Shown here piece by piece: positions 23,473 through 34,001 of a stretch of 34,001 nt of DNA (positions are counted from its first letter, which is position 1; the number at the start of each line of letters is the position of its first letter). The DNA lies in the IMG/VR virus record IMGVR_UViG_3300027969_000022, positions 1 through 34,001 of that record. One strand, written 5' to 3'. A program made the translations under genes and the position numbers. Origin of the DNA: a virus. Below the pieces are notes generated by a model, which saw only the letters and a program-made list of their open reading frames with translations, ran no database searches and was not told the origin of the DNA.

Positions 23473-24234
23473 ATGAAAAGATTTATAAGTTTTAGCGGAG
23501 GTGTAGAAAATACTACTATGTGTATTTTATATGGCAAAGGATCAACTGCAATATGGTGTGATACAGGAGCAGAACATAATGAAATGTATGAAAGAATTAA
23601 TTATGTAGAAAATAAATTAAAAACATTACACAAAGGAGATTTTAATTTAGTAAAAGTTAAAAATAAAAAACATATAGGATTAGAGGCTTATGCTAAAAAA
23701 CAAAAATATATGCCTTCAGGTCAAGCAAGATATTGTACTAGACTTTTTAAGATTGAGCCAATAGATAATTTTTTACATAATCAAGGAGAATGTGAATTAA
23801 TGATAGGGTTTAATGCAGATGAAGAAGGTAGAACTGGTAACTTAGAATTAAAATCAAATGTTAAATATAGTTATCCATTAATTGAAAATGGATTAAATAG
23901 AAATGATTGCGAAGATATTTTAAAACTAAATAACCTTCATCCTGAGTTTCCAGTTTATATGTTAAGGGGTGGATGTAGGATGTGCTTTTTTAAATCAGAA
24001 AAAGAATACAGAGCAATGTATCATTTAAATAAAAAAGAGTTTAATGAAATGATTGAGTTTGAAGAAGGGATGCAGGATAAAAGATTAAAGTATTATTCTA
24101 TAATGGGCAATGGTAAAAGTCTTAGACAGTTAGCTGAAGAATGTAAACAAGAGAAATTAATGTTTAATGAAATAGAAACACTTTATAAATCTTTAAAAAA
24201 AGAAACATCTTGTGGTGCTTTTTGTCATAGATAA
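23473..24234 (+). CDS. PP-loop protein resembling PAPS reductase / sulfurtransferase
   Basis: The product has 253 aa. The PP-loop reads SFSGGVENTT at residues 6-15, with E12 where SGGxDS proteins usually have Asp. Next come WCDTGAEHNEMYER and YC88TRLFKIEP, the layout of the PAPS-reductase superfamily (ATP-binding, sulfur or nucleotide activation). Four further Cys, C168 and C171 (GGCRMCFF) and C247 and C251 (CGAFC), could hold an Fe-S cluster or zinc. Phage members are linked to sulfur metabolism or DNA modification in other systems; no partner genes such as dnd are visible here. Confidence 0.75.
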   Translation: MKRFISFSGGVENTTMCILYGKGSTAIWCDTGAEHNEMYERINYVENKLKTLHKGDFNLVKVKNKKHIGLEAYAKKQKYMPSGQARYCTRLFKIEPIDNFLHNQGECELMIGFNADEEGRTGNLELKSNVKYSYPLIENGLNRNDCEDILKLNNLHPEFPVYMLRGGCRMCFFKSEKEYRAMYHLNKKEFNEMIEFEEGMQDKRLKYYSIMGNGKSLRQLAEECKQEKLMFNEIETLYKSLKKETSCGAFCHR

Positions 24235-29940: not shown

Positions 29941-30314
29941 AGAAACAACCACACGGAGGATATTTAAACCGATACGAGAAAGGGGCAGCTTGGAAAGGTA
30001 ATCGTAATGGCAGACCTAGAAAATATATCACAGAACTTGCACCACACGGATATAAGAATGCACAAGTAATGGATTGCATTCAGGTATTAATGGCAATGAC
30101 TGTTGATGAACTTAAAGCGGTATGGGATAACAAAGAAAGTACAATACTAGAAAAGACTTTGGCTAATGCTTTAATTAAATCAATGGCTAAAGGTTCTTTG
30201 TATTCCGTAGATACTTTATTATCAAGGGTTTATGGTAAACCAAAAGAAACTACTGCAGTAACACAGGATAGTAAAATAGAGGTTGTATTTGTTAAAGGCA
30301 AAACAATATTATGA
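29931..30314 (+). CDS. terS: Small terminase subunit
   Basis: The product has 127 aa. It recognises phage DNA for packaging. The N-terminus WKGNRNGRPRKY is the short basic, AT-hook-like entry typical of this group, followed by helices (VMDCIQVLMAMTVDELKAVW, LEKTLANALIKSMAKG) and YGKPKETT near the end. It is coupled by ATGA to the large terminase. The basic N-terminus may bind DNA. Confidence 0.8.
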   Translation: MSLEKQPHGGYLNRYEKGAAWKGNRNGRPRKYITELAPHGYKNAQVMDCIQVLMAMTVDELKAVWDNKESTILEKTLANALIKSMAKGSLYSVDTLLSRVYGKPKETTAVTQDSKIEVVFVKGKTIL

Positions 30315-31465
30315 TTTTAGAGTTACCAGAAGCGCACATCAACCAAACTAAGATACTTGAATCAACTGCAAGATTCAGAGTAGTTATGTGCGGAAGGCGA
30401 TTTGGTAAGTCTGAACTTTCACAGGTAGAAATTATTAGCAATGCTTTACAAGGTATGAAGGTTGCATATATAACACCAACCTATAAACTAGCCAAAACAT
30501 TCTTTGAGAAACTTACTCAATGTGTACCTTTTGAAAATAACAAAAGCGATTTAACGATTCACTTTCCAAATGAAGGCACAGTTGAATTCTTTACAGGAGA
30601 AAGACTAGATAATCTAAGAGGTAGAAAGTTTCATTTAGTTGTAATTGATGAAGCCAGTTTTATATCTGATTTACAGGATGGATGGTTAAATTCAATTAGA
30701 CCTACTTTAACCGATTTTCAAGGCAGAGCATTATTCCTATCTACACCAAGAGGAAAGAATTATTTTTATTCCTTATATATGAAAGGTGGGCAAAGAGATT
30801 GGGAAAGTTTTAAATTTACTACTTATGATAATCCTTATATCTTAACATCAGAGATTAACGATGCAAAAGCGCAATTACCAAAAACAGTATTTGAGCAAGA
30901 GTATATGGCTAACCCTATGGAGAATGCAGCTAATCCATTTGGTGCTGAACATATTACAAAGTGTACTTGCAGTTTAAGTTATAATGAACCAATGTTTTAT
31001 GGAATAGATTTGGCAAAGTCTTTTGACTGGACTGTTATTATAGGATTAGATAGCGAAGGTAAGGTTTGTCACTTTGATAGATTTCAAAAGGATTGGCTAC
31101 AGACTAAAGAAACAATTAAACAGATACGAAAGCATAAACATATTTTTATAGATAGTACTGGAGTAGGCGATGCAATAGTTGAGGACTTACAAAAGTACTT
31201 TAATGATATGACAGGATTTAAATATACATCAACCAGTAAGCAGCAGTTAATGGAAAGCCTTGCTTCATCAATCCATAAAAAAGAAATAGGATTCCCTGAA
31301 GGTGCAATCAAAGATGAATTAGAAATATTTGAATATCTATTTACTTCAACAGGGGTAAGGTATTCAGCACCTGCAGGATTCCACGATGACTGCGTTAATG
31401 CCCTTGCTTTAGCTAATAAATGCAAGATAGAGAATAGAGGAAGTGGTCAATATCACTTTATTTAA
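30311..31465 (+). CDS. terL: Large terminase subunit
   Basis: The product has 384 aa. It is the packaging motor. ATPase motifs: Walker A CGRRFGKSE (28-35) and Walker B HLVVIDEAS (D113, E114). Nuclease domain acidic residues: D233 (YGIDLAKS), D281 (IFIDSTG) and D359/D360 (FHDDCVNALALA). Length fits the short TerL forms. It follows TerS by ATGA. The order to the tail chaperone downstream, rather than to the portal, is unusual. Confidence 0.95.
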   Translation: MILELPEAHINQTKILESTARFRVVMCGRRFGKSELSQVEIISNALQGMKVAYITPTYKLAKTFFEKLTQCVPFENNKSDLTIHFPNEGTVEFFTGERLDNLRGRKFHLVVIDEASFISDLQDGWLNSIRPTLTDFQGRALFLSTPRGKNYFYSLYMKGGQRDWESFKFTTYDNPYILTSEINDAKAQLPKTVFEQEYMANPMENAANPFGAEHITKCTCSLSYNEPMFYGIDLAKSFDWTVIIGLDSEGKVCHFDRFQKDWLQTKETIKQIRKHKHIFIDSTGVGDAIVEDLQKYFNDMTGFKYTSTSKQQLMESLASSIHKKEIGFPEGAIKDELEIFEYLFTSTGVRYSAPAGFHDDCVNALALANKCKIENRGSGQYHFI

Positions 31466-31496: not shown

Positions 31497-32138
31497 ATGA
31501 CAATTAAGCAATTTCAAGAATTATACTATGTAGCTACATCAAAAGATATGGACTTTGACAAGTCTATAAAGATGGTAGGAATTGTAACAGGAAAGACACC
31601 TGAGCAAGTAGAAAAGATGTCAATGAGGAAGTTTAATATTTTATGTGGTGCTATACATAATCACTTTAAAATATTTGAGAAAGATTTATTAAAAGGTAAA
31701 CCTAAAAAAATAGTTAGGGTAGGAAAGCGATTTTATAGAATAAATTATGATGTAACTAAATGTAAAGCAAGTACTTATGTAGAGGTATCTACTTTTAGTA
31801 CTGATATTATTCAGAACTTACATAAGATAATGGCTTCAATAGTTACACCTGTTAAATTTAAATGGGGTAAGTGGGTAGAACACGAAGAACTATCAAGTGA
31901 CTTAGAAAAAATGAATTTTGAGGTTGCATATCACGCAGCGGTTTTTTTTTACACTTTATTCAACGTATCAATGCAGGTTATCCAGCCTTATTTGATAAAC
32001 GAGATGAAAAGCAAGGGGATAGCAGAAGAACAAGCGAAGGAGATGTTGACAACTTCACAAAGCATTTTGGATGGCTTTATAATGCCAAAATGGTCGCAGA
32101 CTTCGAAGGAATACCTGTTGAATCGGTTTGGAGTTTAA
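31497..32138 (+). CDS. Tail assembly chaperone, 0-frame form (G-like)
   Basis: The product has 213 aa. The first 150 residues are common with the frameshifted form. After the T9 run the 0-frame continues 62 residues (YTLFNVSMQVIQPYLINEM and so on) to a TAA at 32136. Codons in that stretch are richer in G than the surrounding genes (AAG, GGG, GCG, TCG, CGG), as expected where two frames code. It sits between terminase and the tail genes. Chaperone role follows from position and the frameshift pattern. Confidence 0.7.
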   Translation: MTIKQFQELYYVATSKDMDFDKSIKMVGIVTGKTPEQVEKMSMRKFNILCGAIHNHFKIFEKDLLKGKPKKIVRVGKRFYRINYDVTKCKASTYVEVSTFSTDIIQNLHKIMASIVTPVKFKWGKWVEHEELSSDLEKMNFEVAYHAAVFFYTLFNVSMQVIQPYLINEMKSKGIAEEQAKEMLTTSQSILDGFIMPKWSQTSKEYLLNRFGV

Positions 32139-32221
32139 AAGTAATTCATTTTTTAAATGATCTGCTTTACTTAAAATTAAAATTAGAAAAGGATAATGAG
32201 CATAACAAAAAGTCAAATTGA
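31497..32221 (+). CDS. Tail assembly chaperone, -1 frameshift product (GT-like)
   Basis: A one-base slip back at 31943-31949 joins the first 151 residues to an open -1 frame of 90 codons ending at TGA 32219-32221, giving 241 aa. The -1 frame reads like real protein: DNFTKHFGWLYNAKMVADFE and SLKVIHFLNDLLYLKLK. The last 58 nt past the 0-frame gap and the first bases of the next gene are covered only by this frame. In lambda and many other tailed phages the G and GT proteins are made this way. Confidence 0.72.
31943..31949 (+). promoter_or_regulatory. Slippery heptamer T TTT TTT for -1 frameshifting
   Basis: The run of nine T (31942-31950) is read GTT TTT TTT TAC in frame 0, so T TTT TTT is in the right phase for tandem slippage (X XXY YYZ). 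No clear GC stem follows in the AT-rich sequence; a downstream stimulator is not obvious. Confidence 0.68.
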
Positions 32222-32831: not shown

Positions 32832-33976
32832 GTATAACAATTAATACAAATCCTGCAAGTGGTTCAACTGTTCAGGATGACTTATGGCACATAGCAACCA
32901 GTACTGCATCCGGCAGCACAGATATGAAATACATATTTGAAGTATATGTAGGTGGAGTAAAAAAAGTATCAGTAAGACAATTCCCTGAACCTTCAAATGG
33001 TAAGGCATATTTTAATGCCGGTGCTACAGTTCGGAATTCAATAACTTTTAACTGGTTTGAACCACTAGGAACTGCTTTTGTATATCAGCCTAATGTTACA
33101 GGGGAAATGGGTGTACAGTATCAAATAAGAGTAGGAGAAGAAATAAGCGGAGTTACTACATTAAATCTAGCATCAGCAACGACAACTGCCTATAATTTCA
33201 AAGCACCTTTATTTAAAAGGAGAGTAATATCATTACAAGATAAATTAAATAAGTGGTTGACTAACAGACCATTATATGCTAATACTAAATTAGGAGAGAA
33301 TCTATATATACCATTTTATACAAACACAAGTGTAAATTTAAAATGCACAACTTTTGATGCTGCAAATAATCAGATAGCAACTGCATCAGGAAGCACTACT
33401 GCAGTACCAAATGGATTTGTACAAATGAATATAGGAAGTGCTGCAATCTCAACTAACTTAGGAATAACAATTAATGATAGTGTTAGATACTATGATGTTT
33501 GGTTTAATAGCTTTGACAAGATAAGAGTTTATGTAGTTTGTAATCCTAAGTATGAACCTATCAATATTCATTTTATGAATGATTGGGGAATGTGGGATAG
33601 TTTAAGATTTGATTTAGTTAGCAAACTGAATATGAATGTAGAAAAGAAATCTTTTGAGCAAAGAGATTATAGGTTTAATGGTAATTCAGTAGACTACAAA
33701 AGCACATCTAATAGGTATTATGAAGGCGCAACTAATTATAGTATTAAATCTACTTTTAATTATAAGCTAACTGCAGATGCTTTAACAGATGATGAATATA
33801 CTTGGATGGCTGATCTTATATCAAGTCCTCAAATATTAATGGAGATAGATAGTTATTTCTATCCAGTTACATTAATAGATAATAATTATGAGTTTAGTAA
33901 AAATGTATTTAACAAATTAAAGGCATTAGAACTTACATTTAATATGAATCAAAACAGATATTCCCAATTAAGATGA
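32828..33976 (+). CDS. Tail structural protein
   Basis: The product has 382 aa. It is mostly beta (ITINTNPASGSTVQDDLWH, RQFPEPSNGKAYFNAGATVR, NDWGMWDSLRFDLV), with no signal or catalytic motif. The WGMWDSLRFD and late YxLTKLxxx-like strands recur in proteins upstream of tape-measure genes in Bacteroidota phages. It is coupled by ATGA at both ends, to the 690-aa tail-tip-like protein downstream. Likely a distal-tail component. Confidence 0.62.
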   Translation: MSITINTNPASGSTVQDDLWHIATSTASGSTDMKYIFEVYVGGVKKVSVRQFPEPSNGKAYFNAGATVRNSITFNWFEPLGTAFVYQPNVTGEMGVQYQIRVGEEISGVTTLNLASATTTAYNFKAPLFKRRVISLQDKLNKWLTNRPLYANTKLGENLYIPFYTNTSVNLKCTTFDAANNQIATASGSTTAVPNGFVQMNIGSAAISTNLGITINDSVRYYDVWFNSFDKIRVYVVCNPKYEPINIHFMNDWGMWDSLRFDLVSKLNMNVEKKSFEQRDYRFNGNSVDYKSTSNRYYEGATNYSIKSTFNYKLTADALTDDEYTWMADLISSPQILMEIDSYFYPVTLIDNNYEFSKNVFNKLKALELTFNMNQNRYSQLR

Positions 33977-34001
33977 CAAGAATATTTATAGAGAAAAACG
34001 A
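33875..34001. repeat. Terminal direct repeat, right copy
   Basis: Identical to 1-127. The unique genome is 33,874 bp and closes here. Confidence 0.95.
33973..34001 (+). CDS. Start of the 690-aa tail protein (duplicate of 99-127)
   Basis: The first codons of the tail-tip-like gene, repeated because of the circular overlap. The ATG overlaps the TGA of the upstream tail gene. Not a separate gene. Confidence 0.9.

Follow-up and report, generated by a model that had tools for sequence, protein, structure and literature searches.

A predicted recoding site with a near-invariant T9 run and a long dual-coding overlap in a putative tail-chaperone gene of phages related to Nonlabens phage P12024S

The gene that follows the terminase large subunit (TerL) gene in the phage DNA studied here contains a run of nine Ts at which, judging from sequence comparison, recoding of some kind almost certainly takes place. 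The window, by which we mean the whole stretch of 34,001 nucleotides analysed (IMG/VR record IMGVR_UViG_3300027969_000022, positions 1 to 34,001), holds at this site what appears to be a conserved recoding cassette for a short and a long chaperone that share 151 residues. We favour ribosomal -1 slippage at T_TTT_TTT, which would give a chaperone pair of the lambda G/GT or P2 E/E' type, and put the probability of this reading at roughly 0.6; we infer both the slippage and its ribosomal step, and precedent favours the ribosome. An earlier note on this DNA had proposed a programmed -1 shift with long dual coding and a tail-chaperone-like anatomy, and that description withstood each test that we ran.

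The length of the dual-coded stretch, the near-invariance of T9 over a very divergent superfamily and the existence of a clade that does without the shift are new, and -1 recoding in tail chaperones, T-run sites and the absence of a stem are already known. The cassette would extend tail-chaperone recoding to a large and almost unannotated phage group, and it offers a clean case of long alternative-frame coding that comes with a natural control, the fused clade described below, and with a cultured phage. It bears on the need for a ratio of short to long chaperone, as one clade manages without it, and on the choice between ribosomal and transcriptional slippage at pure T runs. Gene callers overlook or mis-split such genes, as in the case of P12024S gp39.

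The slip site, its predicted products and the surrounding genome

In the 0-frame the site reads GCA GCG GTT TTT TTT TAC, and the run is in the phase for T TTT TTT slippage that the earlier note had described, with the heptamer T_TTT_TTT at 31943–31949 (Table 1). Past TTT TTT, the 0-frame continues for 62 codons to a TAA at 32136–32138, and the -1 frame stays open to a TGA at 32219–32221; the tail lengths and the overlap of about 190 nt that had been proposed are all confirmed by these coordinates. The overlap had also been called unusually G-rich. It is modestly so (23% G, the window as a whole having 18%; near the 94th percentile among stretches of equal size), but "unusually" was too strong. 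The suggestion that no evident stimulatory stem accompanies the site was borne out: the region downstream of the slip site in the window has nothing unusual (z 0.14), and the mean z is 0.07 in family 1 (n = 100) and -0.13 in family 2 (n = 78). A Shine–Dalgarno (SD)-like motif within 20 nt upstream of the T run was found in none of 100 relatives.

Table 1. Coordinates of the recoding site, its predicted products and selected genes in the window
Feature	Coordinates	Strand	Comment
Terminase large subunit (TerL)	30311..31465	+	Directly upstream of the putative chaperone gene; phrog_2, E 3e-45; Terminase_6N
0-frame product (short form)	31497..32138	+	213 aa: shared N-terminal part of 151 residues and alternative tail of 62 residues; conserved in homologues
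T9 slip run	31942..31950	+	Invariant in 148 distinct family-1 slip regions
-1 frame extension	31949..32221	+	90 codons and TGA; in relatives it lacks its own start codon; joined to residues 1–151, it gives the predicted 241-aa long form
Dual-coding overlap	31949..32138	+	About 190 nt; rates by codon position and at synonymous sites reduced in both frames
Next gene, 211 aa	32196..32831	+	Start overlaps the final 26 nt of the -1 frame; family matches weak
Tape-measure-like protein, 583 aa	2173..3924	+	phrog_24676, E 1e-11; downstream of the chaperone gene after closing the circle

We infer that the gene encodes a tail-assembly chaperone from its anatomy, from its position and from a sub-threshold Pfam hit, namely a match of the N-terminal part to Phage_TAC_7, the P2 gpE family (E 0.02, short of the cutoff). 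The match to phrog_166, "tail protein", had an E of 0.078. A search of the PDB by sequence and by fold gave no useful match, and the structure matches in BFVD were uncharacterised phage proteins. The AF2 model of the short form has a pLDDT of 75 and a pTM of 0.70, with low to moderate confidence in the tail.

The window probably represents a whole circular genome (about 33.9 kb, 31% GC), because it carries an exact terminal repeat of 127 nt: positions 1–127 equal 33875–34001, and the genes that begin at 33973 and at 99 are one and the same. On the circle the order is TerL, chaperone, a 211-aa, a 382-aa and a 690-aa protein and the tape-measure-like protein, all on the same strand, so that the chaperone and tape-measure genes are not adjacent but are separated by three genes. 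A gene similar in size to that of the 211-aa protein also follows the chaperone gene in a locus of the fused clade (L161). Apart from the T9, the genome has a single 9-nt homopolymer, an A9 run at 780–788, within the gene of the 690-aa protein (99–2171). The host would be a member of Bacteroidota, judging from the relationship to the Nonlabens phages.

Homologues with and without the T run

Homologues of the window's gene (family 1) were collected by scanning IMG/VR with either frame, using degenerate peptide patterns that lie away from the slip site and therefore carry no bias towards T9. All 148 distinct slip regions had a run of exactly nine Ts in the same phase, and the codon preceding TTT TTT was always NTT. 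The 0-frame stays open past the slip site in all 100 nonredundant members, and in relatives of either family the -1 frame opens 3–52 codons before it (usually 9–22) and runs for 80–95 codons after it. The phenylalanines of the site are written TTT TTT, yet elsewhere in the gene TTC is in regular use, accounting for 284 of the 1205 Phe codons of family 1 and 272 of the 533 of family 2. Two copies were set aside: L128, an indel-ridden contig with T5 at the site and a broken TerL that we regard as sequencing noise, and L233 (3001–3620), an unreliable copy that lacks the middle of the gene or has it rearranged about the slip region. No match came from INPHARED phages, searched with the proteins of the window and of L161, or from GTDB genome contigs.

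Eleven contigs without a T run (L161–L168, L171, L202 and L203) have both parts in one frame, in a gene of 251–253 codons that follows the TerL gene. They form one clade with full support in a quick tree that was midpoint rooted for drawing; to say that this fused clade lost the T run assumes that the root lies off its branch. The model of the fused protein is confident (AlphaFold pLDDT 90.5, pTM 0.85). By its sequence the fused clade would make only the long product, which matches the product predicted for the frameshift, and in this way it is evidence for the shift and not a sign of error.

When the model of a naturally fused relative was compared with predicted viral structures by Foldseek, it matched a protein of Nonlabens phage P12024S with an E of 2e-7 (I6R9M9, 175 aa, the size of P12024S gp38). 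In the P12024S genome (NC_018271), gp38 lies after TerL and contains a T9 in the same phase as in the window; gp39, which the annotation gives as a gene in its own right that starts at an internal ATG and encodes a "hypothetical protein" (23663–23830), is the -1 tail of gp38. Phage P12024L is 99% identical to P12024S here. Scans that started from P12024S, the last of which matched more than 590 contigs of which the best 80 were read, gave 120 distinct regions of a second family, 109 of them with T9 and 11 with T10. Profile comparison found families 1 and 2 to be homologous in both domains (hhalign E 6e-18 and 4e-8), with the slip site at the same junction, and their N-terminal parts are 13% identical. 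The 268 distinct recoding regions of the two families all have T9 or T10; T7, T8 and TTC variants were sought at the slip site, and the T10 runs were the sole departures. Some of these (in L320, L333, L359 and L382) sit one codon or one base away, which is not diagnostic as between ribosomal and transcriptional slippage.

A likely structural relative was seen in Flavobacterium phage 6H (NC_021867, L239; 10352–10927, minus strand). It has 191 aa and reads TGT TTT TTC TAT close to the end, where the -1 frame runs into a TAG at once; a chaperone-like C-terminal domain lies further on in that frame.

The earlier note had held that homologues with the two frames as separate genes, or with a T run of another length that joins them into one frame, would mean that the T9 is an error. 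A one-frame clade does exist, but it is a single, fully supported clade and has no T run at all. Homopolymers are error-prone, and L128 is an example, so one could imagine that T9 is a miscounted T8 or T10, or that the gene has decayed. The comparative data refute that reading: many metagenomes contributed to the 148 distinct regions with the same T9, a cultured Nonlabens phage has it too, and both frames are under selection.

Selection on the two reading frames

The check by alignment that had been proposed, namely conservation of the T run together with purifying selection in both frames, gave a positive answer on both counts. Close pairs differ at third positions at a rate of 0.247 in the part coding in the 0-frame only and 0.175 in the part coding in the -1 frame only, and the three positions of the overlap change at 0.096, 0.056 and 0.077. 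We used the clade as the statistical unit, as pairs within a clade are not independent. In every one of the 14 clades, and for either frame, the overlap showed fewer synonymous third-position differences than the single-coding regions did. The overlap rates in family 2 were 0.052 and 0.037 for the two frames, as against 0.211 in the 0-frame-only part; the short -1-only part is also low, at 0.035. These patterns indicate that both tails, encoded by the same 190 nt or so, are under purifying selection.

It could be argued, separately from the mechanism of the slip, that the 0-frame tail is a passenger, kept open by accident of the -1 codons, and that what matters is the shared part and the -1 domain. 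The point at which the 0-frame tail ends does vary by clade (16–88 codons past the slip over both families), its sequence diverges between clades, and its motif LDGF.MPKW shares its DNA with the -1 motif FGWLYNAKM. The low to moderate confidence of the modelled tail points the same way. Synonymous reshuffling of the -1 protein usually closed the 0-frame sooner than observed, but the single tests are modest, with a median p of 0.076. Against this stands the finding that changes silent in the -1 frame, by which a 0-frame residue is altered, occur less often in the overlap than in the part coding in -1 only, in 14/14 clades (sign test, about 6e-5). In the clade of the window, the overlap positions change at 0.166, 0.088 and 0.104, without a maximum at the wobble position of the -1 frame, and in the fused clade the equivalent alternative frame is open for 0–33 codons, compared with 44–85 in the T9 members of family 1. 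We consider a passenger tail unlikely, and a function of its own for the 0-frame tail probable.

Mode of slippage and comparison with known systems

If the slippage is ribosomal, most ribosomes would pass the T9 unshifted and make the short form, and in a minor fraction both tRNA-Phe would slip back by one base on the heptamer to give the 241-residue long form. The two forms would have residues 1–151 in common and would end in either the 62-residue 0-frame tail or the 90-residue -1-frame domain, whose conserved motifs FGWLYNAKMVADFE and FLNDLLYLK mark a domain that may play the role of lambda T. Ribosomal slippage is favoured because of precedent: P2 E/E' makes its -1 shift at TTTTTTG without a stem (PMC3091744), P2 relatives have sites of T7G and T7C (PMC3931495), and reporters with phage tail chaperone sites showed 6–7% frameshifting (PMC3711429). 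The same P2 site means that a stemless T-run site is not the distinct variant that had been supposed for the window. The depletion of slippery heptamers in the -1 phase agrees with the ribosomal reading. Among 811 non-chaperone genes of the fetched loci, these heptamers were rarer in the -1 phase (ratios of 0.11 for T_TTT_TTC, 0.59 for A_AAA_AAC and 0.62 for G_GGA_AAG), and for heptamers such as T_TTT_TTC and T_TTT_TTG the -1 phase was the most depleted of the phases, or nearly so; the depletion of TTTTTTC may in part be codon-pair bias. Pure T7 was avoided in all three phases of the same genes (.46,.34 and.54), and this result, having no phase specificity, does not favour the ribosome.

The avoidance of T7 in every phase is one of several observations that would fit programmed transcriptional slippage, in which RNA polymerase would add one U at T9 and the T10 transcripts would give the same long form in the same role. 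Slippage at T runs has been reported for Tn with n above 8 (PMC3711429); nine is a run length avoided in many genomes, and U-run slippage occurs in Shigella mxiE (PMC1088944). Every recoding member has an uninterrupted homopolymer of at least nine, which is the reported threshold for T runs (PMC3711429, PMC1088944), and the searches for a stimulatory stem or an SD-like element found neither. We regard this alternative as a serious one but as the less likely of the two, as the tail-chaperone shifts that have been described are translational (PMC5009743, PMC3091744), these phages selectively avoid several heptamers in the -1 phase, and the full length of the run can have another explanation. At the slip position of the fused clade, FF is replaced by N/Q/M and W/R, and so FF would be retained for recoding and not for a need of the protein; the flanking residues there are still hydrophobic (M; I/L/M), and so constraint on the protein itself can account for the outer two Ts. 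With the outer Ts explicable in this way and FF dispensable, T_TTT_TTT is the core left for recoding to explain. A joint reading, in which RNA-polymerase slippage at T9 is combined with a functional alternative 0-frame C-terminal domain and the two chaperone tails are chosen at transcription, seems to us doubtful.

The ribosomal reading has its closest parallel in the P2 E and E+E' pair, which shares with the window a T-run heptamer, the -1 direction, the lack of a downstream hairpin and a long form that extends the short form (PMC3091744, PMC3931495). The P2 pair differs in that E' reaches 37 nt back into E (PMC3931495), whereas here the tails overlap over a far longer stretch and both are selected, and in that its site ends in G, whereas T9 or T10 is found here throughout.

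No sequence similarity to lambda G/GT was found. The slippery heptamer of lambda, GGGAAAG, is unlike that of the window. As predicted for the window, lambda makes a short and a long chaperone off a single start by -1 recoding and has a C-terminal -1 domain (PMC5009743); the lambda shift is placed close to the 3' end of g, leaving little dual coding (PMC5009743). In Shigella mxiE, a U run in the transcript likewise makes a longer product out of two overlapping frames, but the gene is an unrelated regulator and the mechanism is that of RNA polymerase (PMC1088944). Nonlabens phage P12024S gp38/gp39 has the same place after TerL, the same T9 phase and a similar predicted fold, in a family homologous in both domains; it differs in its shorter 0-frame tail, of 25 codons, and in being annotated as two hypothetical genes.
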